Source: a virus
DNA length: 56,243 nucleotides
Strand: one strand, 5' to 3'
IMG/VR virus record: IMGVR_UViG_3300009184_000053
Span: 1 to 56,243 of that record
The position numbers were made by a program, and so were the translations under genes. Below are positions 17,991-36,854 of the stretch, piece after piece; position 1 is the stretch's first letter; the number at the start of each line of letters is the position of its first letter. The notes below the pieces were generated by a model. The model made no database searches. It was not told the origin of the DNA and was given only the letters and a program-made list of their open reading frames with translations.

Positions 17991-18797
17991 GTGGGTCTAG
18001 TTTTATCCTATAATCAATACATAAATAACCAATTTATTTCAGAATCCCAAATAGGACCATTTTATAATGATGTTCTAAGTCCAGTTTTTTGGACTAAAAA
18101 AACAGACAAATCAGGAAAGATCTCATGGGAATTCGATCAGAGAGTAAGAAGAAAACTTCTTAGAATAGCTAATGAATTTTTTGAGAAGTTCGATGGAATA
18201 CTAAAGCAAAAGGATATTGTTGATGTTCAATTAACAGGTTCACTCTCAAATTATAATTACACCCCACTTTCAGATCTCGACGTCCACGTAATTGTTAATC
18301 TTGAAGGTATAGACGATGACAATCCAAAGATTCTAAAATCTGCTTTGGATGGAATAAGATTCGTTTGGAATCTTAGACATGATATAAAGATCAGAGGATA
18401 TGATGTAGAGCTATATGTTCAGGATGCTAAAGAACCCCATACTGCATCGGGTCTTTTTTCTTTACTTAATAATGAATGGATAAAAAATCCAATATTCGAT
18501 CCGCCAGAAATTGATGAAGCTGATGTGAATATGAAAGCTGATTCTTTAGCTTATGAGATAGATCAAATAGAAACAAAACTCCTTGTTACTACACTTCCAT
18601 CAAATGCTAAATCCCTTTATAAGAGAGGAATAAAATTGAAAGAGAAAATTCAGAAGATGAGGAAAGAATCATTAAGTAAAGACGGCGAATTTTCTATCGG
18701 TAATCTTGCCTTTAAGAAGCTTAGGAATGAAGGATATATAGAAAAACTTATAGATGCCATAGCAGAGGCTTATAATAAGATTTATACAGAAAAATAA
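17991..18797 (+). CDS. Nucleotidyltransferase-fold protein
   Basis: The 268-aa product has the nucleotidyltransferase signature LTGSLSNYNYTPLSDLDVHV: Gly-Ser followed by an Asp-x-Asp metal pair, with a third acidic residue likely in YDVELYV. This superfamily adds nucleotides to RNA, proteins or small molecules. The C-terminal part is a helical coiled region. The start is uncertain: the frame is open from a TTG at 17964, but that lies inside the terminator hairpin, so I prefer GTG at 17991; no in-frame ATG exists near the front. The substrate cannot be told from the sequence. Confidence 0.72.
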   Translation: MGLVLSYNQYINNQFISESQIGPFYNDVLSPVFWTKKTDKSGKISWEFDQRVRRKLLRIANEFFEKFDGILKQKDIVDVQLTGSLSNYNYTPLSDLDVHVIVNLEGIDDDNPKILKSALDGIRFVWNLRHDIKIRGYDVELYVQDAKEPHTASGLFSLLNNEWIKNPIFDPPEIDEADVNMKADSLAYEIDQIETKLLVTTLPSNAKSLYKRGIKLKEKIQKMRKESLSKDGEFSIGNLAFKKLRNEGYIEKLIDAIAEAYNKIYTEK

Positions 18798-18805
18798 TAA
18801 TATAG

Positions 18806-21439
18806 ATGTTAGCACTTTACTCTTCAAAAGCAGTTTATAATAAAGGTGGGGATTTTCCATTAATATCAATATCCACTGATATGAAAGATGCCCAGGATAT
18901 GGATTTGACAGATTTCCAATGGTGGGCTTACTCTGAAGATTTTAAGGGATGGCTAAGTAAGCACCCTAGAGAATGGACAGCAGATTCTGTTGATACCTCT
19001 GTTTATTCTAAAACGTCATCACCAATAAACGAGAGTATCATAAAGGATAGGGCCTCTAATTTTTCAGATTTTATTTTAGAAAATGATCAAAGTTCGGATG
19101 ATGCATTGGCAAAAGATTCAATTAAATTTCATTATGCATATAACTCTTTGCTGGCTCAGAATAAAATCAAAGACAGTTTAAGTTTTTCTAACTCTGGAGG
19201 GGATTTGGCAGTTTTTATGATGATGAAAGACGATAATGGTCAACCATTAGATGAAACACTAAAGGCATTTAGAATGTCTCCTAGTGCTGGTGACACTAAC
19301 AAACTGGCTATTATGAATGTTAGTGAAACACTACCCGGTGGTAAATTACCAGACAATGCATCATCTGAGAGCATATTCCAAACAATAGCAGATAATAGTG
19401 GTAAGCTAGCTTTATGGGGTATTGGTGGACTAACCGTATTTGGTCTTTTAAAAGTTGCAGGTGGACTTGGTGGACTTTTTACTATAATAGGGCTTAGAAG
19501 AGTCACAAATGCTCTAAAGAATTTTGGAAAAGTTGTGCCTAAGGTTACTAAGCCTTCTAGAACAATAAAATACGTTAAAAGTTTATGGGGATTCGCTAGG
19601 GATCTAATAGTACTGAAAAGAACTAGACAAGCTGGTAAAATTATTAAGGATGCGACTTGGATAGCAAATGAGAGAGTTAGACTAGCAAGAGCTGCAGGGA
19701 AAACACGAAAACTTGTACTTGCAGGTAGATGGGCGGGCGGATTCGGGAAGGGATTACGTGCGGGTGAAAAAGTAGTAGCTCAAGCTGCTGGTAAGACTGG
19801 GGCAAAATTAGGATCTCGACTTATTCCCTATGTTGGTGAGGTTTTAATAGCTACTGATATAATCGCATCTTCTTGGAATTGGTGGAGCGGAAGACAAGCA
19901 CCAATGTATAGCGATCTTAAAAAAGAAAGCTGGATAAAAGATCACTTTAATCCAAAAGAAGTTGAAATTGGTAAAGCTATAACAGTTTGTTTTAGCCAGG
20001 GAAAGGGAGGAGCTAGCGGATTTTTATCGGGGTTATTTTTTAATGCAGATACAAGAACAACTATGGAGCTTGTAAAAATAGCAGAGAATGGGGGTTCATC
20101 TATTTTTATATTAGCCCAGATAAATTCTAAAGAAATGCAAAAAATGGTTGCTGAGAATGATATGACTCTTCTTAGTTTTAGCAACTCAAGGGATGTTAGA
20201 AGAGGGTATATCGATAATGATGACCTTAAATTCAAAATATCTTTTCAAAATGGTCTTTCCTCAGCTGAAAGTGTTCCCTCTATTTTTTCAGGATATTGTA
20301 GCTGGTCTGAGCTAATGTCAGCTTATGGTAATTCAGAAAGCCAGCTAATTACTGCTGATCCAAATGCTCCCGAGACATTTGATTTCAATTTTAAAGATTC
20401 TGAGAAAAATGTCATTAACGTTTCAGGAAAAAAAATAAGCTCAGATACATTAGCCAAACTAACAGACGATGAGTTAATGATCATATTCGGGGTAACCGAA
20501 ATTTCTAGCAGCGGGGTAAAGGAGCATAGAACTTTTAAAGAATTAAAAGACTCTGGGTATATTTTCGAAGGTGAAGTTATGAAATTTGGAGATTTTAATA
20601 ATAAAATTTCTGGAATTTTTGAAAATGATGACGAAAATACAGGAGACGTTGCTGTGTTAACACCCAAGCAAAAAAGCTCTCCTGCAGTAGTATCAGCATA
20701 CAATATAACTAAAAAAGAATACGCAAATCCTGAACTTATAGGTAAAGATGGATACGGAACTGGTAGTTTTATGAGTTTTCTTCTGGACGCAAAAGGATAT
20801 GGATCATCTGATGATGAGCAGATAGATGTTTTTATAAACACTGACGAGTTTTTAGATGATTGCAGAATGGGATTATATAAATATGATCCATCTGATAATG
20901 TAGCTTCAAATGATGATTCAGAGGATCAAACTGACGATCAAGTAGATAATCCTGATGATACTAAATTAAGCGATCTTGATGCTGATGGAAAAACTAAAAG
21001 AAAAACAGCTCCTTTAACTAGAGGTGGGGATGATGACGAAAGCAATGTTAGATATAGAGGTGGATCAGATGTCCCTGATTATGTTCCAGAACCGAAAAGC
21101 TCAGCAGATGATGTGAAGGCTAATCCGAGAGATGTTTCAGTTAGCTCCAATAGAAGATCAACTGAAATAGAGGACACTCCAATGCCAGGAGGGGTTAATA
21201 TCTTTGATAAGTTCTTGACATATAAAGAAAAAGAGATACTGAGTATATCAAATTGGAAGAACATTACCTTTGCAAAAGAAATACTTGATAGAGCAGGTAA
21301 TGTAATAGAAGTTAAGCTTAGCAACAAATATGCTTCATTTGGAGATAGAAAAAGAAGGTACAGTCCTCAGGACGGAGAATCATTTGAGATTGCCAGAAAT
21401 TTTGTAGAAGAGGTTAAAGATAGAATAAAATCCGAATAA
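18806..21439 (+). CDS. Large unknown protein with membrane-type segment and acidic linker
   Basis: This 877-aa protein lies directly upstream of the head genes. Residues about 202-232 are hydrophobic and Gly-rich (ALWGIGGLTVFGLLKVAGG), followed by a strongly basic helical region (about 233-340). The middle looks globular, residues about 690-790 are acidic and low-complexity, and a short conserved-looking domain ends the protein. PINE-S near residue 74 fits the (L/I)xE processing sites seen in head proteins. A virion or ejected protein is plausible, but the family is unknown to me. Confidence 0.65.
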   Translation: MLALYSSKAVYNKGGDFPLISISTDMKDAQDMDLTDFQWWAYSEDFKGWLSKHPREWTADSVDTSVYSKTSSPINESIIKDRASNFSDFILENDQSSDDALAKDSIKFHYAYNSLLAQNKIKDSLSFSNSGGDLAVFMMMKDDNGQPLDETLKAFRMSPSAGDTNKLAIMNVSETLPGGKLPDNASSESIFQTIADNSGKLALWGIGGLTVFGLLKVAGGLGGLFTIIGLRRVTNALKNFGKVVPKVTKPSRTIKYVKSLWGFARDLIVLKRTRQAGKIIKDATWIANERVRLARAAGKTRKLVLAGRWAGGFGKGLRAGEKVVAQAAGKTGAKLGSRLIPYVGEVLIATDIIASSWNWWSGRQAPMYSDLKKESWIKDHFNPKEVEIGKAITVCFSQGKGGASGFLSGLFFNADTRTTMELVKIAENGGSSIFILAQINSKEMQKMVAENDMTLLSFSNSRDVRRGYIDNDDLKFKISFQNGLSSAESVPSIFSGYCSWSELMSAYGNSESQLITADPNAPETFDFNFKDSEKNVINVSGKKISSDTLAKLTDDELMIIFGVTEISSSGVKEHRTFKELKDSGYIFEGEVMKFGDFNNKISGIFENDDENTGDVAVLTPKQKSSPAVVSAYNITKKEYANPELIGKDGYGTGSFMSFLLDAKGYGSSDDEQIDVFINTDEFLDDCRMGLYKYDPSDNVASNDDSEDQTDDQVDNPDDTKLSDLDADGKTKRKTAPLTRGGDDDESNVRYRGGSDVPDYVPEPKSSADDVKANPRDVSVSSNRRSTEIEDTPMPGGVNIFDKFLTYKEKEILSISNWKNITFAKEILDRAGNVIEVKLSNKYASFGDRKRRYSPQDGESFEIARNFVEEVKDRIKSE

Positions 21440-21500: not shown

Positions 21501-23474
21501 ATGCCTAGAGTAAATGATAATATATTGAATGAACAAATGGTGTTCATCTTGGAGAAACAAGAGCATATACTTGAATCCAAAAAATCTGCAGGGAACGAAT
21601 ATGTTCTTGAAGGAATTGCAGCTGTATTTGGTAAAGAGAACAATAATCATAGAATCTATGAGGAGAAGGAATATCTTCCTCATTTAGATTATTTAAAGGA
21701 TAAGATATCTCAGAAAAGATTGGTTGGTGAATTGGATCATCCTGAAAAATTCGACGTTTCACTTAAGAACATTTCTCATTTAATAACAGATCTTACCCAT
21801 GATAAAGGTGATAGAACTCTAAAAATAAAGGTTAAGCTTTTGGATACTCCTGCTGGAGATATCGCAAAAAAACTTGTTGATGCTGGTGTTCCTTTATCTA
21901 TATCATCAAGAGCAGCAGGTTCTGTTGGTAACGATAAGAAGGTTCAGATTAAAAAAATCTTCACTTATGATTTAGTTGCTGATCCAGGATTTCAAAATGC
22001 ACAGCTTGAAAGAGTCTATGAAAGTGCAGGATTTAGCACAGAAGAATATGAAAACTACAGATCTAATAGCGTAATTAACAGCTTAATTTGCTTAAATGAG
22101 TCTTTAGGAATAGAAAATGAATCTTCTTTGAAGATATATAAAGTCGATAACAACGAAGAGTTTTACAATATTATAAATAAAACAGACAATAAAAATAAGA
22201 AAGCCCTTATGGAGAATAACGAATTTGTTACCGCGGACGAGCTTAATAAATATTCAGTTTTCTTGAAAAAAGAAATGGATGCTATGAAAGCTACTATCGT
22301 GGATTTAAAAGAACAAAAGGAAGCCCTTAGAGAATCAGTAGAATCTAGTAATGATACCTACGAATTAGAATCAAGGGTTGCTAAACTTGAAAAGTATTCT
22401 GAATACTTAGCAGAGAATTTGGAGAATGCTATTAAATATGGCGAATATCTATCAGAAAATCTAGATAACAGTATCACTTATAGCAAGTACTTAGCAGAGA
22501 ATCTTGATAAGACAATTTCTTATTCTAAATACTTAGCAGAGAATGTTGATAGATCAATATCTTATTCTGAGTATGTTGCTGAGAATGTTGATAATAACAT
22601 AGAATACTCTAAGTATATCGCGGAAAAATTAGATCAGAATATCCAATATTCTGAGTACTTAGCTGAGAATGTAGATAAGGGAATTTCTTATTCTGAATAC
22701 TTAGCAGAGAACTTGGATAAAGGTATTGCTTATAGCGAATATTTAGCTGAAAAAGTAAACAACGGTATTGAATATACTGAATATGTAGCAGAAAATCTAA
22801 ACAGAGGTATAGAGTATTCTGACTATTTAGCAGAAAATTTAAACAAAGGAATTGATTATTCTGAGTACTTAGCAGAAAAACTTAATAGATCAATCTCTTA
22901 TAGCGAGTATATCGCAGAATCAATGGAAAGAAACGCACCTTATAGCGACCAAACAAGCTTAAGAGAAAGTGCGGAATTCACAGCAGACTCTGATCTTAAC
23001 GAATCAGGATTTGCAGGAAGCTATGATGATCTTTCTTTTAAAATCGACTCTCTTATTGAATCAGTTCAAACCAAAAAAACTGAGGAGAATATAAACGAAG
23101 CTGCTAACAGATTTGCAGCGACAGCCAAAAAACAAAAGGCAGCAGAATCACTTAACGAATCAGAGAACATTAACGAAACGGGTATCAAGTTTATAGACGA
23201 AATCCCTGAAGAGTATGCTCAGGTTTGGGAATCTTTATCTGAAGGACACAAGCAATCAATTATTGCTCAATCAAGCTTCTACAGATTGGATACTCCATAC
23301 CAGATCAAAAACTTCTGGTCAACACGTCAACTTGGAACTAGCCCAGTTGGTCTTCAAAAACTTCATGAAAGTGAAGAGGTTTCAAACAACCCATCTCAAG
23401 CAACACAAGCTTATTCATCAGATTACATGAATTACATAGCTTCTGCTTTAGAGAAAAAGTTTACAAACAGATAA
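21501..23474 (+). CDS. 21: Prohead protease fused to a repeat-bearing scaffold-like region
   Basis: Residues 1-190 match the T4 gp21 protease: LVGELDHP with His80 and LSISSRAAGSV with the Ser-Ser-Arg at 135-137 (the T4 catalytic His and Ser contexts are GELNHP and GVSSRG). Unlike T4 gp21 (about 212 aa) the chain continues to 657 residues. Residues 299-480 are thirteen 14-residue repeats, consensus YSEYLAENLDKGIS, which should form a long helix or coiled coil. A further C-terminal domain (about 560-657, with EEYAQVWESLSEGHKQSI) follows. LNE and INE sites between them could be cut by the protease itself. The protein therefore looks like gp21 plus gp22-like scaffold in one chain. Confidence 0.82.
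   Translation: MPRVNDNILNEQMVFILEKQEHILESKKSAGNEYVLEGIAAVFGKENNNHRIYEEKEYLPHLDYLKDKISQKRLVGELDHPEKFDVSLKNISHLITDLTHDKGDRTLKIKVKLLDTPAGDIAKKLVDAGVPLSISSRAAGSVGNDKKVQIKKIFTYDLVADPGFQNAQLERVYESAGFSTEEYENYRSNSVINSLICLNESLGIENESSLKIYKVDNNEEFYNIINKTDNKNKKALMENNEFVTADELNKYSVFLKKEMDAMKATIVDLKEQKEALRESVESSNDTYELESRVAKLEKYSEYLAENLENAIKYGEYLSENLDNSITYSKYLAENLDKTISYSKYLAENVDRSISYSEYVAENVDNNIEYSKYIAEKLDQNIQYSEYLAENVDKGISYSEYLAENLDKGIAYSEYLAEKVNNGIEYTEYVAENLNRGIEYSDYLAENLNKGIDYSEYLAEKLNRSISYSEYIAESMERNAPYSDQTSLRESAEFTADSDLNESGFAGSYDDLSFKIDSLIESVQTKKTEENINEAANRFAATAKKQKAAESLNESENINETGIKFIDEIPEEYAQVWESLSEGHKQSIIAQSSFYRLDTPYQIKNFWSTRQLGTSPVGLQKLHESEEVSNNPSQATQAYSSDYMNYIASALEKKFTNR
22209..23474 (+). other. Possible nested scaffold gene by internal initiation
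   Basis: The in-frame ATG at 22209 (Met237 of the fusion) follows an A-rich stretch (aaaacagacaataaaaataag) of the kind that precedes real starts in this window. Starting there would give a 421-aa product with only the repeats and C-terminal domain. Nested scaffold genes are known in lambda (C/Nu3) and herpesviruses. No other separate scaffold gene is visible next to the capsid gene. Confidence 0.4.
22395..22940 (+). repeat. Thirteen tandem 42-bp (14-residue) repeats
   Basis: Units start at each Tyr of Y-S-(E/K)-Y-(L/V/I)-A-E-(N/K). Protein conservation is high but third positions vary between units, showing long-standing purifying selection rather than a recent slippage expansion. Fourteen residues equal two heptads. 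Confidence 0.9.
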
Positions 23475-23500: not shown

Positions 23501-25249
23501 ATGAAATTGATTAACGAACAAGAAATCTATAGTACTTGGGCGCCTCTAATCGAGAGCAAAGCAGGTATTACAGATGAAAGCAAAAAAGGATGGTTGACTA
23601 AATATTGTCACTACCATTCATTAAACGAATCTGCTGGTGCTTACAACACTTTAGGTGTAGTAAACGGTATGGGTGCTGTACAAGCTCCTTTATTCCCAGG
23701 CGCTAGCTACGGTATTGGTACTGCTTCTACAAGTGCTAATGCTAACTTCTACAACACTGGATATCAAGGTTCAGGCGATAAATTCCCTTCATTACTTCCG
23801 TTGGCTATTCAGGTAGCTGCGAAGACTGTTGGTTTTGATATCGTTCCTGTTATCCCAATGTCTGGTCCTACTGGTATCTTATCATACCTTGACTACGTAT
23901 ACGCTGGTGGTAAAATCGCTGGTGCTACTTCAGGTACTTCAGGTGCTGATTTAGCTGATTCTCCTACAATGATTAAGTTCTCTGCAGGTACAACTGCTGC
24001 TTCTTCAACTGCAGTAAGCACAGGTATCACTGGTTTCAATAGTGCTGCAGTAGGTACAACTTACTATATCGGTGCTACTGGTACTGTTACTTCTTATAGT
24101 CAACATATCACTGCTAAATTCGTAGGTTTATCAAGAATAGATGGTAGTCCAATTTACCAAATCACAAACATCGGTGACGGTTGGAACGTTGCTTCTGTAG
24201 TAGTTGCTGGATCTTTAGTATCTTCATCTACAACAGTTAGTACTGCAAACGCAGTTGGTGTTGTCACTTCAACAGCCTCTCTAGTTAAAGGTCTTGAAGA
24301 TCATATCCAAGGTTTCTCTGGTGCTGGTTTCAACAACGATCAAAACTGGCAAGGACCATACGTTGATGGTACTAAGACTTACAACCCAATGTTAAGAGCG
24401 GTTGGAGAATCTACATACTACAACTCAATGGGTCTTTCGACTTTCACTAAGTTCGTAGAAGCTGAGACTTTCCAAGTTGCTGCTTCTGTTACAACTGAGC
24501 AAATCCAAGATTTGAATAAGCAATTCGGTATCGATGTGATTTCAATGATTGAAAACGCTCTTGTTAACGAGGTTTCTCAAGCTATCAACAAGCACATCCT
24601 TGCTAGAGCATTCGCTTTAGGTTGGTCTAACCACATCACATTTAACAACGTTGATGGACAAAACTTGAACTTAAACTTGTCTACTTCAGCTGCTTCAGCT
24701 ACTGCTGCTTACGTAGGTAAAGAGGACACTGGAGTTTCTTTAGCAGTTCCTGGTCAAATCGCAACAAACAACTTTGAGAACCAATCAACTTTACAAAGAA
24801 GATTATTCTCTAGAATCCTTGCTGCTGCTAACGTAGTTGCTAACAGAGGTAGAAGAGGACCTGCTAACTTCATCGTTACTAACTCTCAAATCGCTTCTGC
24901 TTTACAAGACATTAGCCAGTTCACATTCGCTCCATTCTCTAACACTTTGACTCAAAATAACGGTACATTATACCCTGTAGGTTCACTTGCTGGTATGACT
25001 GTTTACGTAGATCAGAACATGAACTACGCTGATACTAGAATCTGTGTTGGTAGAAAAGGTGGTGATGACGAACCAGGTCTTAAGTTTATGCCTTACATGA
25101 TGGCTGAATCAATTCAGACTATCTCTGAAGGTACAATGTCTCCTAAGATTGCAGTTAAATCTAGATACGCTCTAGTTGAAGCTGGCTTCTTACCAGAAAC
25201 AATGTATCTTACGTTCTTCGTAAACATCCCATCAGGTGGTATAGTTTAA
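23501..25249 (+). CDS. 23: Major capsid protein, T4 gp23-like
   Basis: This 582-aa protein follows the protease, as in T4. Its N-terminus (EQEIYSTWAPLIES) resembles the gp23 start AELLNKWKPLLEG, and later blocks fit gp23: TFQVAASVTTEQIQDL (related to RQLKAAYSIELAQDL), NRGRRGPANFIVTNSQIASAL, and near the end KFMPYMMAESIQTI and KSRYALVEAGF. A likely maturation site is after Glu43 in SLNE-SAGAYN, equivalent to the T4 cut after residue 65. Codon use differs from its neighbours, with many C-ending Asn, Tyr, Phe and Ile codons and GGT/GCT, as expected for the most expressed gene. A strong terminator follows. Confidence 0.92.
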   Translation: MKLINEQEIYSTWAPLIESKAGITDESKKGWLTKYCHYHSLNESAGAYNTLGVVNGMGAVQAPLFPGASYGIGTASTSANANFYNTGYQGSGDKFPSLLPLAIQVAAKTVGFDIVPVIPMSGPTGILSYLDYVYAGGKIAGATSGTSGADLADSPTMIKFSAGTTAASSTAVSTGITGFNSAAVGTTYYIGATGTVTSYSQHITAKFVGLSRIDGSPIYQITNIGDGWNVASVVVAGSLVSSSTTVSTANAVGVVTSTASLVKGLEDHIQGFSGAGFNNDQNWQGPYVDGTKTYNPMLRAVGESTYYNSMGLSTFTKFVEAETFQVAASVTTEQIQDLNKQFGIDVISMIENALVNEVSQAINKHILARAFALGWSNHITFNNVDGQNLNLNLSTSAASATAAYVGKEDTGVSLAVPGQIATNNFENQSTLQRRLFSRILAAANVVANRGRRGPANFIVTNSQIASALQDISQFTFAPFSNTLTQNNGTLYPVGSLAGMTVYVDQNMNYADTRICVGRKGGDDEPGLKFMPYMMAESIQTISEGTMSPKIAVKSRYALVEAGFLPETMYLTFFVNIPSGGIV

Positions 25250-25390: not shown

Positions 25391-26533
25391 ATGAAAAATA
25401 TCCCCTCTTTTAACGAGTTTAAAAAATACGATCATCTTTTAGAATCTTCTGATGATTTATTAAGGAAAGAATTTAATGAATTAGAGAGATTAGAAATTTC
25501 TTATAACCTAAACGAGGGAAGTGCTTTAGATTCTATAAAAAGTTCTTTATCTAAATTCTTTTTGGGTCCTTTGTCTAAAACTGGTATGATAGACGAGACA
25601 AGAAAGATTATGATTGATCTAGAGATTGACCTAATAGAACAGAAGTACTCTATCGAGAAAGAAATAGAAAATATTAACGACCAAATAAGTGGTTTATCAA
25701 GATCATCAGAGAAAGAGAAATATACAGCTTTAGTTAAGGATAAGGAATCTAAAATTAAGCAGATTGAAACCTATATTAAATCGCAAAGATTAAAGATAAA
25801 AAAGTGTCAGGAACACATAAGAAATCTTATAGGTAAAAGTGAAAGAAGAAGAGAATATTACGAAACTGGCAGAGCGGAGGATGAAATAACAATAGCAGAA
25901 TTTGAATATCAATTAGCTAAATCAGAAGCAGATTCTTCTGAAATTAGAAAATATGAAGAAAAAATAGCTGCTGCTAGAAAAGAAGCTGCCGAGAAAGCTG
26001 AGAAATTTGAGGATGATTTAAAAGCAAGCTCTGAGATAGAATCTGAAGAGCCTGTCGAGCGAGTGGATGCGGAGAAGGAGAAGAAGAAAGTTTCTTCTAG
26101 AAAAGGATCTGATATTATAAAAAGAAAAAATGATTTGCAGAAAGAGATCATAGATTTGAAATCAGATCTTGAAAGGAAGCTTAAGACCCTACAAAAAAGA
26201 ATAGAAAAAGGAAACGGTAAAGCATCAGTTTCATACGTTAATAAGATGAGAATTCAACTTCTTGAATTAACATCTACACTTGATGCCAAAGTTAATCTTT
26301 TAAATGCTTTTAAGGAATTAGGGGGAAGCGAGAAAGAAATAACTTCTAAGGTTGCTAAAGAGACTGAGTTTTCTAAATTAGCAAGTAAGATTAATAGCGG
26401 AATAGTAGATGGCCAGGATGCTAATACAGGAACTAAAAAAATAATAGGATCTATTTTTTCAACGAATTCTAAAAATGGAACTGGTGAGGTAAAGATTGAA
26501 AAATTAAAAGATGCTATTAAGAAAATTCAATAG
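25391..26533 (+). CDS. Candidate capsid-internal protein, coiled-coil rich
   Basis: This 380-aa protein begins MKNIPSFNEFKKYDHLLES, a short Phe-x-x-Phe peptide like the T4 capsid-targeting sequence (MKTYQEFIAEA). Prohead-protease-type sites follow at LLE-S and at NLNE-GSALDS near residue 41. The mature part is almost entirely charged coiled coil (about 75-230 and 240-320), rich in Lys, Glu and Arg. No enzyme motif is seen. It opens the block behind the capsid gene, and I infer it is packaged in the head or belongs to the scaffold core. Confidence 0.65.
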   Translation: MKNIPSFNEFKKYDHLLESSDDLLRKEFNELERLEISYNLNEGSALDSIKSSLSKFFLGPLSKTGMIDETRKIMIDLEIDLIEQKYSIEKEIENINDQISGLSRSSEKEKYTALVKDKESKIKQIETYIKSQRLKIKKCQEHIRNLIGKSERRREYYETGRAEDEITIAEFEYQLAKSEADSSEIRKYEEKIAAARKEAAEKAEKFEDDLKASSEIESEEPVERVDAEKEKKKVSSRKGSDIIKRKNDLQKEIIDLKSDLERKLKTLQKRIEKGNGKASVSYVNKMRIQLLELTSTLDAKVNLLNAFKELGGSEKEITSKVAKETEFSKLASKINSGIVDGQDANTGTKKIIGSIFSTNSKNGTGEVKIEKLKDAIKKIQ

Positions 26534-26560
26534 AGTTATAAATTAAGTACCCAATATATA

Positions 26561-27496
26561 ATGACCTTATTAAAATTTAAAGAGTGGAATAGAGTAGATG
26601 AATCAAAGATTAGCGATAAGCTTAAGAATTGGTTTAGTGGAGCTTTCGGCGGGGCTATACATAAGCTTGATTCACTTCTATCAGAATATAAAACTTCAGA
26701 GCTAAGATTTGTTGACGAGTGGGATGAGGTTAAAACTGAGATTGATTCTTTATCTTTGGAAAGATCCCAAAAAAGAAGCGATCCTGCTGATGCTAAAAGA
26801 ATTGACAGAATGATTGATAGAAATCAAGCAATAATTCCGGCAGCAACTAAAGCTAAAGAGAAGAAGAGTGAGGAAGTTATGTTGAAAGCTAAAAATATTA
26901 TAGGAGATAATAAAAGACTTCAGAGCTATTGGGATACTAAAAAAGCTACGGTTGATTCTGAGATATCTGAAGAGATGTATAGAAGGGCTAAAAGATTAAC
27001 AGATTCAAGTTTAGCCGATGATCTTTATAGTAAGTATAAAAAAGCAGTAACTAAGGCAAAAGAAAAAGATGAAGCTTTTAAAGAGGAATATGGGGATTAT
27101 TCTTTTGGTAGAGTCCCTTCATATACTCCTGAAAGATCTTATGGATCTTATTTTGATATAGCTAAAAGATCAACTCCGGTTGATTCTGTCGGAGGTATGG
27201 AATCTAGTTTTGAGTTTCTTTCTAAATTATCAGTAGTCGAATTTGCAGAAGCAATTAAGGGATTCCCTAGGGATCAAGCTAAAAAACTTGCAATTTTTCT
27301 AATAAATGAAAGGAATGATAGATATGTTTCAATGGATATGGAAAGAGACCTTTTAAATACAGAGGTTGAAAAAAATCCAAATGATCATAAAACTAGAGAG
27401 TATGCCTCTAAAAAAATAAAAGAGATCAGAGAAAAATATATGGCTGAGATCAGAGATCTAAGATCCAAAATAACAATAATAAAAAGATATGCTTAA
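26561..27496 (+). CDS. Candidate capsid-internal protein, helical
   Basis: This 311-aa charged helical protein starts MTLLKFKEWNRVDESKISD, again a Phe/Trp-containing N-terminal peptide followed by an xxE-S junction (VDE-S). Residues 15-35 can form an amphipathic helix with Gly (NWFSGAFGGA). Coiled-coil segments follow. It ends by overlapping the next gene by 8 nt (ATGCTTAA). No known family; capsid targeting is inferred from the N-terminus and the block it belongs to. Confidence 0.6.
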   Translation: MTLLKFKEWNRVDESKISDKLKNWFSGAFGGAIHKLDSLLSEYKTSELRFVDEWDEVKTEIDSLSLERSQKRSDPADAKRIDRMIDRNQAIIPAATKAKEKKSEEVMLKAKNIIGDNKRLQSYWDTKKATVDSEISEEMYRRAKRLTDSSLADDLYSKYKKAVTKAKEKDEAFKEEYGDYSFGRVPSYTPERSYGSYFDIAKRSTPVDSVGGMESSFEFLSKLSVVEFAEAIKGFPRDQAKKLAIFLINERNDRYVSMDMERDLLNTEVEKNPNDHKTREYASKKIKEIREKYMAEIRDLRSKITIIKRYA

Positions 27497-27761
27497 ATTC
27501 GACGAATTTTTAATCAATGAAGCTGATGGCGTTCAAACTAAAATAGAGAAGCTTAAGGTTAAGCTTTCTGAAAATTTTGATGCCATAAAGGAAGCCAAGA
27601 AAATGAAGAAGCCAGGTGATCCTGCTAGTGAGATAACTAGTCTAACCAAACAGGCGGATTTGTATGCAGAGATTTCACCTGTCATGAAATCTCTTATTGC
27701 TGCACTAAAAGAAAAAGAAGCAGATAAAGCGGCAAACCCGGGAAAGCCTACATTATATTAA
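27489..27761 (+). CDS. Small candidate internal protein with T4-IP-like targeting peptide
   Basis: This 90-aa protein begins MLKFDEFLINEADG. This is the closest match in the window to the T4 internal-protein targeting peptide MKTYQEFIAEA, where the prohead protease cuts after the Glu of IAE; here the cut would be INE-A at Glu11-Ala12. The remaining 79 residues are lysine-rich helices. Size and arrangement are those of T4 internal proteins IPI-IPIII, which are packaged and ejected with the DNA. It is coupled to the previous gene by an 8-nt overlap. Confidence 0.68.
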   Translation: MLKFDEFLINEADGVQTKIEKLKVKLSENFDAIKEAKKMKKPGDPASEITSLTKQADLYAEISPVMKSLIAALKEKEADKAANPGKPTLY

Positions 27762-27775
27762 AAAATAAAGATAAG

Positions 27776-30280
27776 ATGAGTAAGAACCCCTATGTTCACA
27801 ATCCCATTGCGGAAAGACTTCTAGGAGATTATAATCAAAGACTTTTTGAAAACGAGAAGGTTGAACCTGTTATCTCTAAAATATGTGATCAGATTTTAAA
27901 TATCTTTAAGATTTTAAATTTCGATCTTGCTAAAAAGAGAGATAGAAATCCTGATGTTATGAGGGATAAACTATCGGATATCTCCACATCTAAAACGGTA
28001 AAATCATTAACTGGTAAAATTGTTGACTATGCAGACGATGCAGACGTAAGCGATTCAAGATTTGCTGAGGTTAAAAGGCTTTATATTGAAAGTTTAAAGA
28101 AATTTACAGAGGCATTAAATAGAGCATCTGAAATAAGTAAAGGAAAAAGTGATGGATTTATATTAAAGAAATTTAAGATTGATCCAACTAAAATTCAAAC
28201 AACTCTTGACTATGTTGCAAAACAAGCAGAGGAGGAAGAGGAGAAAATGTTAAAAGCTGAAGAGGAAGCTTTATCTGAATCATTATTTATTAGCGAGTCA
28301 ATTTTTACTGGACATCAGGGAAGGGTTAAGAATCTTAAAAAACTTTTAGCTAATCTTATAACTTCAGCGGAGGGAAAGGATCAGAAAGGTGGATATGGTA
28401 GAGATTGGAAGAGGGTGTTCATAGAACTAGATCAGAGAAGACAATCTTTAGATTACAATGGTGGGGGTGAGAAGAGCAAGAAGATCTTAGAGGATTTGGA
28501 AAAGCAGGTTGAAAAATTTCAGGATGAATTTAATAAAGCTTTGGTTAGCGCATCTAACAGATCACTTCAACAACTAGAAACAGACGAGGAAGTTTATACA
28601 TCATATGTTGACGTTGCTGATTTGAATCGTCAGGCTTTAGATGATTTAACTAGAGCACAAACCCAGTATTCTATTGCGGTAAAAGAAATTAAAGACGGAC
28701 ACGAATCAAGAGAAACCGAAATTAGCAAAAACCTATTCCCTTTAAAGAGAGGTGATTCTGATTCTGATAAAAAATTAAAAGACAGCGGTTTAATATATTC
28801 TATACAGACTGCAATCTGTAATGGCATTCCTTCTGTCGGTAGATTGCTCAAAGCAAAAAAAGGTTACAATGGAAAATTTGGACCTTCTACTCAGGCAGCG
28901 ATTATGACTATTCAGAAAGTTTCTGGCAATAAAAACACAAACGGTGAGATAGATAAATCCCTTTTGGATTCTATCCTTCTATCGGATTGGGTTTCATACA
29001 AAGACAAAGTTGCGATAAGAAATGCTATAGATAAAATAAAATCTCAAGTGAACGAAAGCTCTCGTTTTGGTAATCATCTAATAGGTACAAGAGAATTTAT
29101 ATTTAATTTGAACGAGGAAAAAATTTTTATAAACAACTCAGAGTTTGAAAAGGAATTAGAGACACAATACAAATCGATTGCGGGTAATGTTCAGATGCCA
29201 CAATTTGACGAATCTGATCCTATTGACAATAAACCTACAGGAGCTAGCAACTTATCTAAAAAACTAAGATCTGTATACAGTATAAAAATAGAGGCAGATG
29301 ATTTTATTAAATCCGACGGAAGCCTTAAATCTTCATATACCCAAGATTTTATATCTGCATGGAATAATGCAATTGACGAGGCTCAGCCTGTTGATGACTT
29401 TTCCTATTTTTATTCTATGGGTGGTGTATATAATATTAATCTTTCATCCACCTCTCTTAAAACACCTTGCAACTGGACAAAATGGGCTGAAGTGAGAAAG
29501 CTTAAAGATCTAAGCGATGAAGACTGTCTAGATTTTATTACAAACTATTTAAATGGATGGAAAACTTTCGGTCTGATTAGACCAGAATGGAGATATTCAG
29601 GAATAAAAGAATTGAATAAAAAAATAGGGGAAGACGCAAAAAACTCAAGAGCTTACGATAAGGTATATTCTGCTTGTAGTGACAATGGAACTGTTCCATA
29701 CATCGCTTATAATTTGCTAAGAGGTCCAGTTGCTCAATCGTTTAAATCTGTTTTGCAATTAAATGAAAAATCTCCAGATCTAGAAGATACTGATTTTTCT
29801 ATGCTAAACAATCTTATAGTTATGATTGCTAATACCGTAACTTTTGATGGAGATAAATTCGTTAGCTGTATTAAATGGATACATGATAATATTATGGGGG
29901 AGTCAACTTGTAATAGATTAGTTAAAGACTCGATAACATCTTCTATCGATGATGTTGATTCTGGCGAAATAATTCTTTTAGGATTCGAAAGTTCTAAAAT
30001 AATAGTTTCAACCAAAGAAGATCTTTTAGACAGATTGAATACTGAAGAGGTTAAAGATCCATCTAGAATGCTTTCTGGATTTTCCCCATTGATCAAAATT
30101 TCATCAGGAAAAGATCCTGAGGATGCTGGGGTTAAAGAGATTTTAGGTAAGAACCTATATTACATAGCTGCTGATATTTACCCTTCAATAGCAGCTCACG
30201 TTAAAAGAATAAACTCTACATCATTTTCGGAGATACCCCAGGTTTCTCCTTTTAAATGCGTAGATTCGGATAATCTATAA
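27776..30280 (+). CDS. Large head-block protein with peptidoglycan-binding-like domain
   Basis: This 834-aa protein is the largest in the block behind the capsid gene. Residues about 340-403 look like a PG_binding_1 domain: a GL-x-x-x-IQ lead-in, NGKFGPSTQAAIMTIQ near 365-380 and NGEIDKSLLDSIL, matching the usual G-x-x-G-x-x-T-x-x-A-(V/I)-x-x-(F/I)-Q pattern. ALSESLFISES (about 165-175) and FNLNE-E (about 445) could be protease sites. No hydrolase motif is visible. A protein ejected into the cell wall or periplasm would make sense of a wall-binding module, but a tail or tape-measure-like role is possible. Confidence 0.6.
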   Translation: MSKNPYVHNPIAERLLGDYNQRLFENEKVEPVISKICDQILNIFKILNFDLAKKRDRNPDVMRDKLSDISTSKTVKSLTGKIVDYADDADVSDSRFAEVKRLYIESLKKFTEALNRASEISKGKSDGFILKKFKIDPTKIQTTLDYVAKQAEEEEEKMLKAEEEALSESLFISESIFTGHQGRVKNLKKLLANLITSAEGKDQKGGYGRDWKRVFIELDQRRQSLDYNGGGEKSKKILEDLEKQVEKFQDEFNKALVSASNRSLQQLETDEEVYTSYVDVADLNRQALDDLTRAQTQYSIAVKEIKDGHESRETEISKNLFPLKRGDSDSDKKLKDSGLIYSIQTAICNGIPSVGRLLKAKKGYNGKFGPSTQAAIMTIQKVSGNKNTNGEIDKSLLDSILLSDWVSYKDKVAIRNAIDKIKSQVNESSRFGNHLIGTREFIFNLNEEKIFINNSEFEKELETQYKSIAGNVQMPQFDESDPIDNKPTGASNLSKKLRSVYSIKIEADDFIKSDGSLKSSYTQDFISAWNNAIDEAQPVDDFSYFYSMGGVYNINLSSTSLKTPCNWTKWAEVRKLKDLSDEDCLDFITNYLNGWKTFGLIRPEWRYSGIKELNKKIGEDAKNSRAYDKVYSACSDNGTVPYIAYNLLRGPVAQSFKSVLQLNEKSPDLEDTDFSMLNNLIVMIANTVTFDGDKFVSCIKWIHDNIMGESTCNRLVKDSITSSIDDVDSGEIILLGFESSKIIVSTKEDLLDRLNTEEVKDPSRMLSGFSPLIKISSGKDPEDAGVKEILGKNLYYIAADIYPSIAAHVKRINSTSFSEIPQVSPFKCVDSDNL

Positions 30281-30281
30281 G

Positions 30282-30290
30282 GATATATAA
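30282..30290 (+). promoter_or_regulatory. Candidate late promoter GATATATAA
   Basis: It lies 19 nt before the ATG at 30310, in a 29-nt gap right after the preceding stop. Confidence 0.5.
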
Positions 30291-30309
30291 AAAACAAAAG
30301 AATTAAGAT

Positions 30310-31044
30310 ATGGGAAATCTTTTACCGTTTGATACTTATTCATCCATACAGAAAAACAGTCAGTCTATAAATGAAAGTTTAAGATCAGGTGACTTTTCTT
30401 TTGAATCTTTGAATGAGAAGGAGCTTTTAGAGTTAGACTACATGGCAGAGACATCAGGTCTTTGCACATTTGATTTGATCTGCATGCAAGAAGGCGTGGG
30501 ATATGATAAATTAGGACGTCCTATGCAATATCAGCCAGATTATGAAATTGAAGGCCATTTATATGAGGATGAAACTGGATGGCTAGCTAAGGAAGTAAAC
30601 AAGCAAACAGCTGAGATCAAACCTAAAGTAACTGAAGCTCTTAAAGGACTTCAATTGAAGCCGACACCTGCGGTAGATTCACTTATTGGTATGTATATTA
30701 CGGGCCTTAAAAAGGCTTTAGCTAAAAATCCAAAAACAACAGGAAAACTTTTTGATATAGCTAATACACTACCTGAGCATAAAAAGGTTGTTAAAATATT
30801 ATCTAATAGCTATTCTAAAATAATTAAGGATAATGATGCTAGATTGCAATCATCTTTGTTTAGTGAAGACAATAAGGCAACAGCGGGTAATTTAGCAACT
30901 GTTCAAAATGCTATAAAAGAAGTTGTTTTCAATCTTAAAGAAGAGGGAAATAAACATGGCGAGAAAAATAAAATATCTCAATCTGTGGTTAATCCTAAAC
31001 CTTGGACGGAAGCAGATTTAAAAGCAGCAGAAGCTAAAGCTTAA
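30310..31044 (+). CDS. Internal-protein family member 1 (FDLICM family)
   Basis: This 244-aa protein starts MGNLLPFDTYSS, followed by SINE-S near residue 22, a possible protease site. Residues about 38-65 carry LDYMAETSGLCTFDLICM and EGVGYD, shared with the next gene (LDRLAEEHGICTFDLICM, EGIGYD) and in weaker form with the third (IDELVITEGRGYLDLVAI). A second shared block near the end reads FSEDNKATAGNLATVQNA. Between the two blocks the sequences differ freely. I recognise no known function; the trio looks like a phage-specific family of packaged proteins. Confidence 0.65.
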   Translation: MGNLLPFDTYSSIQKNSQSINESLRSGDFSFESLNEKELLELDYMAETSGLCTFDLICMQEGVGYDKLGRPMQYQPDYEIEGHLYEDETGWLAKEVNKQTAEIKPKVTEALKGLQLKPTPAVDSLIGMYITGLKKALAKNPKTTGKLFDIANTLPEHKKVVKILSNSYSKIIKDNDARLQSSLFSEDNKATAGNLATVQNAIKEVVFNLKEEGNKHGEKNKISQSVVNPKPWTEADLKAAEAKA

Positions 31045-31076
31045 TAATTTAAATATAAAAATAAAATAAACGAACG

Positions 31077-31811
31077 ATGAAAAATCTTTTATCTTTTGGT
31101 AGTTATGAACCAGGAAAATCCAATTCACACAGTGGAGTGAATAGCAGGATTAACGAATCTAACCTTTTTGAAAGCGTAAAGAATATAGACTTTACAAATC
31201 TTAATGAACAAGAAAAAGCTGATCTTGATAGATTGGCGGAAGAGCATGGAATTTGCACATTTGATTTAATCTGCATGAGAGAAGGCATAGGTTATGATTC
31301 ATACGGTCAGCCTTTAAACGAGGAAGAGATTGATGCTGAATATGAGTCAATTGACGAGGGATTCCTTGGTGGGCTTCTTAAGGTAGTTAAAAATGTTATA
31401 CCTAAAGCTAAATCTATTATTGCTAAGGCTAAACCTCTATTCCAGAAGGGTGGAAAGATTAGCCAGGGACTTCAAGGTGCTTTTGGTAAAGTACAAGCTG
31501 GTATAGCTAAATTAGCAGGCAAATCAAAAACTTTACAGGGATTAATAAAAAATGCAGATTCTAATCCGGAATTAGCTCAATCCGCTGATGCTTCACAAGA
31601 AGGATTAGGTAAAGTTCTTGCAGATCTTAAAGCTAACGGAGCTAAAGCTTTCTTTAGTCCTGATAATGCTGCTACGGTTCAAAATGTTGCTAGCTTATTT
31701 AATAGCACTTCTCAAACAGCTAGTGAAGTTAAAAAAGCTGCTCCTAAATTAGCAGAACCTGAAGACGCTGACGATGATGACGATGATGACGATGATGAAT
31801 CTGGAATATAA
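31077..31811 (+). CDS. Internal-protein family member 2 (FDLICM family)
   Basis: This 244-aa paralogue of the preceding gene begins MKNLLSFGSYEPG and has INE-S near residue 27. After the shared acidic N-terminal block, SIDE-GFLGGLLKVVKNV (about 90-107) changes abruptly to a basic, amphipathic, Gly/Ala-rich chain. SIDE-G has the (L/I)xE form of the prohead protease site, so the acidic part may be a propeptide. The C-terminus has FFSPDNAATVQN and then a run of about ten Asp. The pattern suggests a protein whose basic helices bind DNA or membranes once released. Confidence 0.65.
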   Translation: MKNLLSFGSYEPGKSNSHSGVNSRINESNLFESVKNIDFTNLNEQEKADLDRLAEEHGICTFDLICMREGIGYDSYGQPLNEEEIDAEYESIDEGFLGGLLKVVKNVIPKAKSIIAKAKPLFQKGGKISQGLQGAFGKVQAGIAKLAGKSKTLQGLIKNADSNPELAQSADASQEGLGKVLADLKANGAKAFFSPDNAATVQNVASLFNSTSQTASEVKKAAPKLAEPEDADDDDDDDDDESGI

Positions 31812-31833
31812 TAAAAATTAAAAATTCTAACAA

Positions 31834-32889
31834 ATGAGGAATATAGTATCCTATAGTAATATTTTTGAATCAAAAGAGGTTAAGAAAAAATCACCGCTTT
31901 TTGAAACCTGCTCATCTTTCAATTTGGACGAGGAGTTAACTGTTGAACAGCTTAGAATGATTGACGAGCTAGTTATTACAGAGGGCAGAGGATATTTAGA
32001 TCTAGTTGCAATAAAGGAAGGATGGGACGTAGAAGATATAAGCGAGGAGTATGATTATCCAGAAGACATGACTTTTGCAGAATTTATAGAGAAAGAATTT
32101 GAAGGATTAGACGAGGAGTCTTTTGCACAATGTCTTGTTGACGATCTTGGTCTAGATGATTTAAATGAGGATGAGCTAAAAGAGTTTTGCAGTTTATTAA
32201 ATGAATCTAACTTTTTTGAAGATCTCGATGAGTCTGAAATCTATGAGCTTAATGAGGGATTCTTTAAAAAAATAGGCCAAGCTTTTAAAAAAGTTGGACA
32301 GGGTATAGCTAAGGGTGTTAAATCTGTAGGACAAGGCATTAAAAAAGTAGCTCAGAATATCAAGAAGATAAGCTTAAAGGATATAGGTAAGGCTTTAAAG
32401 AAAGCTCTTCCCATTATAATAATGGTTGCTTCTATTGCTCTAACCTGTGTTGGTGTTCCTGCAGGTCTTGCTATAGCATCAAAATCTCTTGGCTTTTTAA
32501 GTAAAGGAATGAAGGTTTTACAAACTGCTCAAAAGGTTCAGAAAGCAGGAAAATTAGTATCCACGTTAAATAAAGCTAAAAAAGCTATTAAAGGACTAAA
32601 GATGGTTAAAAAGATATCATCTTTAGCTAATAAAACTAAAACGCTTAGAAAGACTTTAGATATAGTAGCTAAAGGAGCTAAAAAAATTAAACAGGATTTT
32701 GCAAAAAGAGGAGCAGAAGCTCTTGAAAGCCCGGACAATCAGCAAATAGCTGGAACCATGGCGGCAACATATCATGCTGCTACAGAAGGTGCAGATGCGA
32801 TGGCAAACGAAATGAAGGAGGTTCCTGATGATCCAGCAGTTGCAGCAAAAATGGATGCAGAGGCAGATCAAGCATCACAGCAAGCTTAA
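31834..32889 (+). CDS. Internal-protein family member 3 with hydrophobic basic core
   Basis: This 351-aa protein starts MRNIVSYSNIFES. The first 145 residues are very acidic. At ELNE-GFFKKIGQAFKK (about 140-156) the chain becomes strongly basic and amphipathic, with a hydrophobic stretch at about 192-215 (LPIIIMVASIALTCVG) long enough to span a membrane. ESPDNQQIAGT near residue 305 matches the C-terminal block of the two preceding genes. Cutting at LNE-G would release a cationic membrane-active protein from an acidic shield. This is inference from composition. Confidence 0.65.
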   Translation: MRNIVSYSNIFESKEVKKKSPLFETCSSFNLDEELTVEQLRMIDELVITEGRGYLDLVAIKEGWDVEDISEEYDYPEDMTFAEFIEKEFEGLDEESFAQCLVDDLGLDDLNEDELKEFCSLLNESNFFEDLDESEIYELNEGFFKKIGQAFKKVGQGIAKGVKSVGQGIKKVAQNIKKISLKDIGKALKKALPIIIMVASIALTCVGVPAGLAIASKSLGFLSKGMKVLQTAQKVQKAGKLVSTLNKAKKAIKGLKMVKKISSLANKTKTLRKTLDIVAKGAKKIKQDFAKRGAEALESPDNQQIAGTMAATYHAATEGADAMANEMKEVPDDPAVAAKMDAEADQASQQA

Positions 32890-32892
32890 TTG

Positions 32893-32901
32893 GATATATA
32901 A
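32893..32901 (+). promoter_or_regulatory. Candidate late promoter GATATATAA
   Basis: It lies 35 nt before the ATG at 32937, between the third family member and the next gene. Confidence 0.5.
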
Positions 32902-32936
32902 AAAAAATATATAAAACAAAATAAACAATTTTAAAA

Positions 32937-34088
32937 ATGAAAAGAATATTAACATTCTCAGGATTTGAAGACATGTACGAATCCTATGGATTTACCGATG
33001 ATATGTTAGAATACGATAGCGAAATATTCGGAGAAGATGACACTGTAGAAGATATTTTCGAATTTTGGGATAACATTGAAGCCAATCATATTAACGAAGA
33101 TACAAAAGCAGTTCCTGGCAAGAAAACACCTGGTGGTGTCCATATGGATGCTGAATATTATAAATTGTTTGAAAGCGTAAGTGTTGTTACTATTAATGGT
33201 CAAACATATATCATAGGTATACCTAAAAAAGGTGCTTCTGAAAGTGTTGATAAAATAAGCAAAAGACCTGCATTTGCAAAGAGCGGTTTATCTAAAGCTT
33301 TCTCTTGGATAAAAGATGTGGCAACTGCAGAGAAAGCTAAAAAAGCTCTTGTCTTCACAGCTAAAGCAGTAGTACTGGCACCTTTAGCTGTAGCATCTGG
33401 TATAATCGGAGCAGCATCTAGTTTGATTAAAAACGTTGCTAAGGGAGCTGTTAAAGTAACAATGAGTGCACTCCATGGTATGGGCCACATTACAAAATGG
33501 GCTGGCACTAAAGCATACAGTGCTGCAACAGCAGGATTTAATGCGATATACGATGGCTTTGTTCAAGCCGGTGCTAAAGCATGTAAAGCTATATCGGGAG
33601 CTATGAAGGGCGTTAAAAAGGGAGCAATTGCAATAGGTGGATTTGTTGCTGCATTAGGAAAAACTGCTGCCATGGTTACTGGGAGCGCAATGAAATTTGT
33701 TCTTGCTGTTGGTGTGGGTTTAGGTTTAGTAGCATGGAAGGGATTAAAATCTCTAGCTGGTGCTGCTTCTTCAGCTGCTAAATGGGTTTATGGAAAAAGT
33801 AAAGAAGCCGCACAATATATGGCAAATTCAATTAAATCAGGTCTTACGTCTGTTGTTAATGGAGCTAAAAGTGTTGCAGCAAGTGGATATAATCATGCTA
33901 AAAATGTAGCTTCTAAAGGATGGCAAGGAGCTAAAAATGTTGGATCTGCAATTTCTTCAGGAGTAGGATCTACTGTGAAATTTGCTCAAGAATACTATAA
34001 AAAAGGAAATGATGTAGTTAATAAATTATTTGGTAAATTATTTGAAAGTGATGGATATGAATTTGGTACTATAGAAATTTTCTCATAA
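32937..34088 (+). CDS. Candidate internal protein with long Ala/Gly-rich amphipathic helices
   Basis: This 383-aa protein begins MKRILTFSGFEDMYES, like the other targeting-type N-termini. Residues 1-55 are acidic, ending HINE-DTK, a possible protease site. From about residue 100 onward the chain is Ala/Gly/Lys-rich with several hydrophobic stretches (for example VLAPLAVASGIIGAASSLI and FVLAVGVGLGLVAW) and quasi-repeats such as GAKSVAASGYNHAKNVASKG. This resembles membrane-inserting or channel-forming helices. It is the last gene before a strong terminator. No known family. Confidence 0.65.
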   Translation: MKRILTFSGFEDMYESYGFTDDMLEYDSEIFGEDDTVEDIFEFWDNIEANHINEDTKAVPGKKTPGGVHMDAEYYKLFESVSVVTINGQTYIIGIPKKGASESVDKISKRPAFAKSGLSKAFSWIKDVATAEKAKKALVFTAKAVVLAPLAVASGIIGAASSLIKNVAKGAVKVTMSALHGMGHITKWAGTKAYSAATAGFNAIYDGFVQAGAKACKAISGAMKGVKKGAIAIGGFVAALGKTAAMVTGSAMKFVLAVGVGLGLVAWKGLKSLAGAASSAAKWVYGKSKEAAQYMANSIKSGLTSVVNGAKSVAASGYNHAKNVASKGWQGAKNVGSAISSGVGSTVKFAQEYYKKGNDVVNKLFGKLFESDGYEFGTIEIFS

Positions 34089-36209: not shown

Positions 36210-36854
36210 ATGGCTAGAATAAAAAAACTTAAGGATTATAAAATAAATGAAGATTTTAATTGGAGCGGGGTTTTGAGTAGTGTATTCCCTATGTTGGGGG
36301 GCGCTTTCCAGGACACAATTAAAACAAAAATAACTGCTGCCTTAATGGAAAAGATCGGACTTTCCGAAGGATCTTTATTATCAGCATTTGTACAAGAGTT
36401 TGTTGCTGAAATTCCCATTGGCGATTACCCTTCAATACTTTCAGGTAATAATATGAATGGTGATTATTGGGCTCCTAAATTATCAGATTTTGCTCGTAGA
36501 TTTGTTGAGAGAAAGGGTATAGACACGATAGCAGAAAAAATGGGGATTAAACCTAATGGATTAGCTTCAACATACTTTAGAAATCTTTTATTAAGCAAAG
36601 AAGGACAAGATAAATTAACTAGCATGTTTGCTCAAATACTTGGATCTTCACATATAGGGAAAGAAGCTTTAAGCAATCTTAGCAGTTCTGATAAAACCAA
36701 ACTTTCCGATGTTCTTAGTCAAAGATTGGGACAAACCTATAGAAATACGGGGAGTACGTCAAATGCCAGCACTTCAAGCTCGAATTCTAACGATAAAGGG
36801 GTTTGGGGATTTCTTAAAACATTTATGGGAGCAGCAGAAAACCCAAATGCATAA
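36210..36854 (+). CDS. Candidate capsid-targeted protein
   Basis: This 214-aa protein begins MARIKKLKDYKINEDFNWSG, a basic N-terminal peptide ending in INE-D, the same form as the putative targeting/cleavage peptides of the block at 25-34 kb. The rest is helical with moderate hydrophobic character and a Ser/Asn/Thr-rich linker near 180-195. Residues 20-40 (SGVLSSVFPMLGGAFQD) may be amphipathic. It is the first gene of a small late unit with the next gene. Function unknown. Confidence 0.6.
   Translation: MARIKKLKDYKINEDFNWSGVLSSVFPMLGGAFQDTIKTKITAALMEKIGLSEGSLLSAFVQEFVAEIPIGDYPSILSGNNMNGDYWAPKLSDFARRFVERKGIDTIAEKMGIKPNGLASTYFRNLLLSKEGQDKLTSMFAQILGSSHIGKEALSNLSSSDKTKLSDVLSQRLGQTYRNTGSTSNASTSSSNSNDKGVWGFLKTFMGAAENPNA

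Follow-up and report, generated by a model that had tools for sequence, protein, structure and literature searches.

A putative capsid-targeting peptide at the N termini of many unrelated proteins in T4-related huge phages

Why should a run of otherwise dissimilar proteins encoded behind a phage capsid gene begin with the same kind of short peptide? This question arose in a viral contig of 56,243 bases from a T4-related huge phage (IMG/VR record IMGVR_UViG_3300009184_000053; the whole stretch is called the window below), in which we confirmed eight open reading frames (ORFs) directly 3' of the gp23-like capsid gene. Little is known in general of what, besides DNA, huge phages bring into the cell. 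Based on comparison with relatives and reference phages, we put at about 0.8 the probability that the peptide functions as a T4-type capsid-targeting sequence (CTS) combined with a cleavage site. Genes are designated by their start positions; they were called as the longest ORF, with ATG preferred, on contigs that are possibly incomplete.

The typical peptide, hereafter the tag, has the form (I/L)xx(F/Y)xx(F/Y/W), followed by a prohead-protease site (L/I/V)xE. Of the eight block proteins, seven (25391, 26561, 27489, 30310, 31077, 31834, and 32937) combine a core (F/Y)xx(F/Y/W/I) at the N terminus with an (L/I/V/M)xE site that falls between residues 11 and 27, the exception being 27776; the initial annotation had likewise counted seven such starts. 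That annotation had also listed similar starts outside the block, which hold for 36210 and 38523 but not for 15755, where only MKHIKTINE is found. Two further carriers had been overlooked, namely 17991 with a tag and 18806 with an internal NFSDFILE↓N (an arrow marks a predicted cut).

We compared N termini with internal methionines of the same proteomes using the pattern ^M.{2,6}[FY].[EDSTQNG][FYW].{0,20}[LIV].E, in the window, in three relatives' long contigs (434, 348, and 373 kb), and in reference phages. In the window, the core with (L/I/V)xE occurred at 6 of 54 N termini and 2 of 227 internal methionines (p = 8e-4). The corresponding counts in the three long contigs were 46/610 versus 12/1770, 29/421 versus 12/1439, and 27/500 versus 10/1482 (p = 6e-18, 4e-11, and 1e-9), and the uncultured phage LR756500 gave 36/632 versus 18/1459 (p = 2e-8). 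Short hydrophobic N-terminal patterns might be frequent by chance in AT-rich phages, and indeed 0.7 to 1% of internal positions match; single matches are weak, and individual carriers may be accidental. Against this, 5 to 8% of the proteins in the three long contigs carry the pattern, compared with 0.7 to 0.8% at internal methionines. The odds ratios are 8 to 12 and rise to 21 to 23 if P2 must be N or S, and no enrichment was observed in phiKZ (1/342 N termini), PTm1 (3/289), or Lak-A2 (3/577, read with TAG as Q); in T4, the carriers are too few for significance. Because the regular expressions had been composed after the window and its relatives were seen, we also ran a free scan of about 565 gapped three-position patterns, in which I..F..F ranked first in all three long contigs (p = 3e-23, 2e-22, and 6e-10), and examined held-out contigs (G008 and part of G001), where the enrichment was repeated with odds ratios of 3.3 to 24. 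Together with the conservation among orthologs described below, this makes chance an extremely improbable explanation.

After background correction, each large contig holds about 25 to 45 carriers from many unrelated families, 28 families having at least two tagged members. Carriers are clustered as neighbors (p = 0.03 to below 0.0005), yet they are spread genome-wide, and most sit outside the capsid-gene block. Thus, the large set of packaged proteins predicted by the initial annotation gains support from the sequences, but the block from which it was predicted is a small part of that set.

Among 24 to 46 distinct ortholog N termini per family, residues 2 to 20 have a mean identity of just 18 to 30%, and the spacing of the tag residues is kept while the remaining letters vary. 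The aromatic pair is present in 46/46 (26561), 24/24 (27489), 41/43 (17991), 34/46 (25391), and 31/39 (36210) ortholog N termini, whereas the neighboring genes used as negative controls have it in 1/42 (34190), 2/41 (34753), and 0/34 (36869). The shared starts could in principle reflect a DNA or RNA element, such as a promoter or translation signal, with no function of the peptide; no Shine-Dalgarno-like sequence was seen upstream, and early codons could act in initiation. However, F, Y, and W interchange, the distance from start to motif varies, and the Glu codons at the cut (GAA/GAG, 0.66/0.34) are used as they are genome-wide (0.65/0.35). Besides, in 37 of 41 orthologs of 18806 the motif lies far from the start, as an internal copy between residues 60 and 135, with an expectation of 0.14 per 75 residues. 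Conservation therefore acts at the amino acid level, and a nucleic-acid signal has next to no probability in our estimate.

The residues that are kept correspond to those with established roles in T4. In T4 IPIII, targeting is directed by residues 4 and 7 (Y and F) and processing by residues 8 and 10 (I and E), and the T4 protease cleaves at L/I-x-E (PMC9026906). The T4 CTS (in the propeptides of IPI, IPII, and IPIII) and the tags share aromatics at i and i+3, an (L/I)xE cut, and a length of about 10 to 20 residues, and both genomes encode a gp21-like protease and a gp23-like capsid protein. As expected of a CTS, the tag is shared by otherwise unrelated proteins with diverse domains, in a genome that holds this protease, a scaffold, and the capsid protein. 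When cut-site residues were counted after selection on [LIV].E alone, P2 was N in 44% of presumed sites versus 6.7% of the background, and P1' was A, S, or G in 51% versus 19%. These preferences match the SLNE↓SA site of the capsid protein itself; the one ortholog record without this site begins inside the motif. The likeness to T4 internal proteins proposed by the initial annotation is thus borne out in both the residue spacing and the cut site.

The scaffold offers a further link. Its 14-residue repeat is conserved in more than 60 relatives' loci, and the array is also visible as a tandem array in the DNA. The heptamer [FY].[EDQ][FY][LIVM].E occurs in 9 to 10 copies per scaffold in the three long contigs versus about four per 100,000 residues elsewhere, and it is found at 7, 2, 13, and 21 N termini in G004, G005, G006, and LR756500, respectively. 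The T4 CTS itself, MKTYQEFIAE, includes this heptamer (YQEFIAE). This suggests that the tag imitates the scaffold repeat.

A peptide that sorts proteins to another site, such as a phage compartment, a membrane, or the tail, with incidental LxE sites, would agree with the genome-wide spread of the carriers and the metabolic enzymes among them, and N-terminal sorting signals are generally known in other phages. Nevertheless, we consider such sorting quite unlikely, given that the residues flanking LxE match the capsid protein's site, the spacing is that of the tested T4 CTS, the heptamer recurs in the scaffold, and several conserved carriers adjoin the capsid gene.

In the mechanism that we favor, the T4-type CTS would have been widened from a handful of proteins to a genome-wide address tag. 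The tag would fold as a short amphipathic helix with aromatics at i and i+3, mimicking a single 14-residue unit (IxYSEYLAEN) of the scaffold that the phage itself encodes, and tagged proteins would co-assemble with the scaffold core during prohead formation. The gp21-like prohead protease would then cleave after (L/I/V)xE, mostly at (L/I)NE↓(A/S/G), and remove the tag, the same protease cutting up the scaffold and trimming the capsid protein. The freed proteins would stay with the DNA inside the head, and ejection into the host would be probable for at least some of them. In the predicted structure of 17991, the tag is a separate short helix (residues 7 to 13), and the cut site, at a nearly invariant E18, lies inside a low-confidence linker (residues 13 to 18).

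We further characterized the carriers with Pfam and NCBIfam. Matches included adenylate kinase (6e-37), a RimK-family ligase (2e-32; TIGR00768 above the cut-off), GDPD (2e-16), CHAP (5e-9), exonuclease RNase_T (4e-9), OmpA domains (1e-7), PNK3P phosphatase (2e-21), DUF2201 metallopeptidase (9e-34), leucine-rich repeats (1e-33), and R2K ATP-grasp (9e-7), with Tlde1/YkuD and Hydrolase_2 below the cut-off. The known domains start downstream of the tag, e.g., adenylate kinase from residue 27. About half of the tested carriers had no significant match in Pfam. Six paralogous leucine-rich-repeat proteins of LR756500 (13446, 14298, 180972, 198758, 313382, and 331856) all start with the tag MKYIKxYEDFxxE. 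Stretches of two other tagged proteins, G006:164039 (L106) and G004:11336 (L138), resembled ADP-ribosyltransferases by eye (LYHG..., GGCIFLTS). Such enzymes would be a counterpart of Alt in T4; Pfam gave no match.

Whether the carriers reach the host is a separate matter. They might be recruited to the prohead core as structural core or inner-body parts that are kept in the head or degraded, like T4 gp67 and gp68, and never delivered. The four genes 25391, 26561, 27489, and 27776 fit this description, being conserved in order beside the capsid gene, helix-rich (as judged from the 27776 model), and devoid of a detected enzyme domain; they probably encode structural head-core or inner-body proteins, and for them this explanation may be correct. 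For the carriers as a whole, we regard it as rather unlikely, since outside the block many of them are enzymes or hydrolases, which are implausible core parts, and T4 CTS proteins and their fusions are delivered into cells (PMC9026906). We are slightly inclined to think, from the sequences, that most carriers are delivered to the host, and the cassette 30310 to 32937 together with 17991 is more likely variable cargo. The initial annotation's suggestion of possibly ejected effectors or pores needs correcting for the block: the four conserved genes look more like structural ones, and membrane activity is plausible only for 31834 and 32937, because these have hydrophobic segments (residues 187 to 205 in 31834, and three segments in 32937).

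Comparison with other phages places the tag among related devices. Unlike T4, with its handful of carriers, these phages have dozens, the cut prefers (L/I)NE, the protease and scaffold are fused, and tag-like repeats stand in tandem along the scaffold, an array that gp22 lacks. In the T4-like cyanophage P-SSM2, two proteins begin similarly with MKSFKQFLEE↓A and MKSFSQFLTE↓T, but carriers are few (8/293 versus 6/895, p = 0.009). Sphingomonas phage PAU (JQ362498, 100-120 kb), a related isolate, has a different N-terminal tag, MK(T/S)(L/I)xxL(Y/F)E, on 17 proteins versus 0/1044 internal methionines (looser pattern), and 12 of the 17 lie within 20 kb holding the head genes; the FxxF tag was not found in PAU. 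The PAU tag resembles the present one in being N-terminal, clustered at head genes, and followed in several carriers by LNE↓(A/S), but leucine replaces the aromatic pair core. Two tagged PAU proteins, gp142 and gp154, are annotated in GenBank as 'internal capsid protein', the basis not being stated there; we count this second tag in favor of capsid targeting. In phiKZ and SPN3US, many different head proteins, some of them cut after xxE, are ejected with the DNA, as would probably hold for at least some carriers here, but the inner-body and ejection proteins have propeptides often longer than 100 residues, the motif A/S-x-E, and no common short N-terminal tag (PMC5694885). Propeptides of this type were rejected for the window, whose site is (L/I)NE and whose head genes are T4-like; phiKZ gave no portal match, as well as no tag enrichment. 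In a partial coverage of the literature, we found no paper on capsid targeting in huge phages, and for cyanophages and jumbo phages only work on T4, SPN3US, and P22, so that novelty is not proven.

Several observations weigh against capsid targeting with cleavage. To our knowledge, adenylate kinase and like enzymes are not known as head cargo. The carriers of T4 and P-SSM2 are few, and the expansion is thus without direct precedent. In LR756500, the tag is present and the scaffold repeats have diverged (YTRYIANE, YMEHIAEK). The N terminus of 27776 keeps only the site, without the aromatic pair, and 15755 likewise lacks the pair. Strict cut sites are scarcer in the mature parts of carriers (p = 0.004 versus the non-carrier ratio, 0.07 versus shuffles), a depletion that is only suggestive. 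The capsid protein of PAU tells both ways. N-terminal sequencing (PMC5646251) showed it shortened by about 65 residues, from 585 to 520, next to LME-64↓N in its sequence, which supports cleavage; yet this site is one residue off the reported cut.

We tentatively favor a broader proposal, in which large T4-related phages, probably of Bacteroidota, would use open cargo loading. Any protein would gain entry to the head via a short, lineage-specific N-terminal tag mimicking that lineage's scaffold repeat, and about 25 to 45 proteins per phage (cell-wall hydrolases, a GDPD-family phosphodiesterase, a RimK-like ligase, nucleotide and nucleic-acid enzymes, and leucine-rich-repeat proteins) would enter together with the genome. 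Another tag would be used in related lineages, of which PAU is an example. Provided that the tag does act as an address, what the virions of many uncultured huge phages carry could be predicted from the genomes by a simple sequence rule, and dozens of unknown proteins would gain a place (the head) and probably a time at which they act (when infection starts). Mimicry of the scaffold, if true, would also suggest how a CTS is recognized, and orthogonal tags for loading proteins into laboratory phages could then be tested.

Table 1. Tags, predicted cut sites, and head genes in the window (an arrow marks the predicted cut; positions are those of the window)
Feature	Coordinates	Strand	Remarks
Tag and propeptide of 25391 (380 residues): MKNIPSFNEFKKYDHLLE↓S ... 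NLNE-42↓G	25391..25516	+	Conserved gene; LxE in 44/46 distinct ortholog N termini
Tag of 26561 (311 residues): MTLLKFKEWNRVDE↓S	26561..26602	+	Aromatic pair and LxE in 46/46 orthologs
Tag of 27489 (90 residues): MLKFDEFLINE↓A	27489..27521	+	Aromatic pair and LxE in 24/24 orthologs
N terminus of 27776 (834 residues): LFE-25↓N, without aromatic pair	27776..27850	+	LxE in 42/42, pair in 2/42 orthologs
Tag of 30310 (244 residues): MGNLLPFDTY...SINE-22↓S	30310..30375	+	Paralog of 31077 and 31834
Tag of 31077 (244 residues): MKNLLSFGSY...RINE-27↓S	31077..31157	+	Paralog of 30310 and 31834
Tag of 31834 (351 residues): MRNIVSYSNIFE-12↓S	31834..31869	+	Paralog of 30310 and 31077
Tag of 32937 (383 residues): MKRILTFSGFEDMYE-15↓S	32937..32981	+	
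Tag of 36210 (214 residues): MARIKKLKDYKINE-14↓D	36210..36251	+	LxE in 32/39 orthologs
Tag of 38523 (313 residues): MIIENFSDFINLKE-14↓S	38523..38564	+	Tagged relatives in G004, G005, and G006
Possible short variant in 15755 (160 residues): MKHIKTINE-9↓F, without aromatic pair	15755..15781	+	LxE in 36/37, pair in 2/37 orthologs
Tag of nucleotidyltransferase-like protein 17991-18797, GTG start: MGLVLSYNQYINNQFISE-18↓S	17991..18044	+	LxE in 43/43 orthologs
Internal tag-like heptamer FSDFILE, residues 86-92 of 18806 (877 residues), after INE-76↓S	19061..19081	+	Internal copy in 37/41 orthologs
Capsid-protein propeptide, predicted cut SLNE-43↓SA	23501..23629	+	SLNESA in 75/76 orthologs
Scaffold repeat array: IxYSEYLAENLDKG (14 residues) in about 13 tandem copies, each with a CTS-like heptamer and LxE site	22389..22940	+	14-residue spacing
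Fused gp21-like protease and scaffold ORF	21501-23474		
gp21-like prohead protease half of the fused ORF	21501..22280	+	PHROG 207 head maturation protease, E = 1e-37, residues 13-250
gp23-like capsid protein	23501-25249		
Two portal genes	7488, 9138		

Among the window carriers, the nucleotidyltransferase-like 17991 is the sole recognizable enzyme. It has GSLSNYNYTPLSDLDVHV, a candidate Pol-beta-type GS...DxD motif, with Pfam NTP_transf_2 just under the cut-off, and its Foldseek matches are mostly nucleotidyltransferases, all weak. A GTG start is likely in nearly all of its orthologs (L003-L092), and diverged members keep the tag and have lost the catalytic motif.

The paralogs 30310, 31077, and 31834 have, besides the tag, two modules in common, a further N-terminal one (LNExExxxLDxLAExxGICTFDLICMxEG) and a C-terminal one (SPDNxxTxxN), their middles being dissimilar. 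Among the fetched loci, they have orthologs in L005 only, and a tblastn search of the phage collection with 31834 gave no match. The protein 32937 has an additional LFE-370↓S close to its C terminus and tagged relatives in G004 and G005, distant from the capsid gene; PHROG matches that would make it a tape-measure protein (E about 1e-4) were judged compositional. The AlphaFold model of 27776 is all-helical (predicted local distance difference test, pLDDT, 80; predicted template modelling score, pTM, 0.46) and had no fold match in PDB or BFVD, and a hint of peptidoglycan binding fell below the Pfam cut-off and was set aside.

The window capsid protein shares 37 to 44% identity with its counterparts in LR756500 and the Prevotella Lak megaphages; its relationship to the capsid proteins of the Tenacibaculum, Chryseobacterium, and PAU phages is more distant. 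A relative of it is encoded in more than 170 IMG/VR stretches, of which 80 loci were fetched for comparison; the relatives suggest a possible host among the Bacteroidota. The protease half of 21501 has relatives in T4, PAU, PTm1, Lak-A2, and LR756500. In the relatives, the capsid gene is followed by orthologs of 25391, 26561, 27489, and 27776, then by kinase-like and asparagine-synthase-like genes, and then by 36210; in the window, the thymidylate-kinase-like and asparagine-synthase-like genes occupy 34190-36162 and have no tag. Orthologs of 38073-38519 have an aromatic start, MSRIYDYTAF, in 18/20 and an LxE site in 1/20, perhaps an uncut tag or another signal.

The portal-like genes (7488-9128 and 9138-10757) stand in tandem with 51% identity across 505 residues, and LR756500 gave one full portal match and a second that was weak and partial. 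A portal start, MAGFLDFL, matched the regular expression and was judged a chance match. Tail genes lie further along the window, beyond the capsid gene, and in this region a 1642-residue ORF (45726-50654) contains a long GDxYPxxPGxDLGxPxRxY repeat array.

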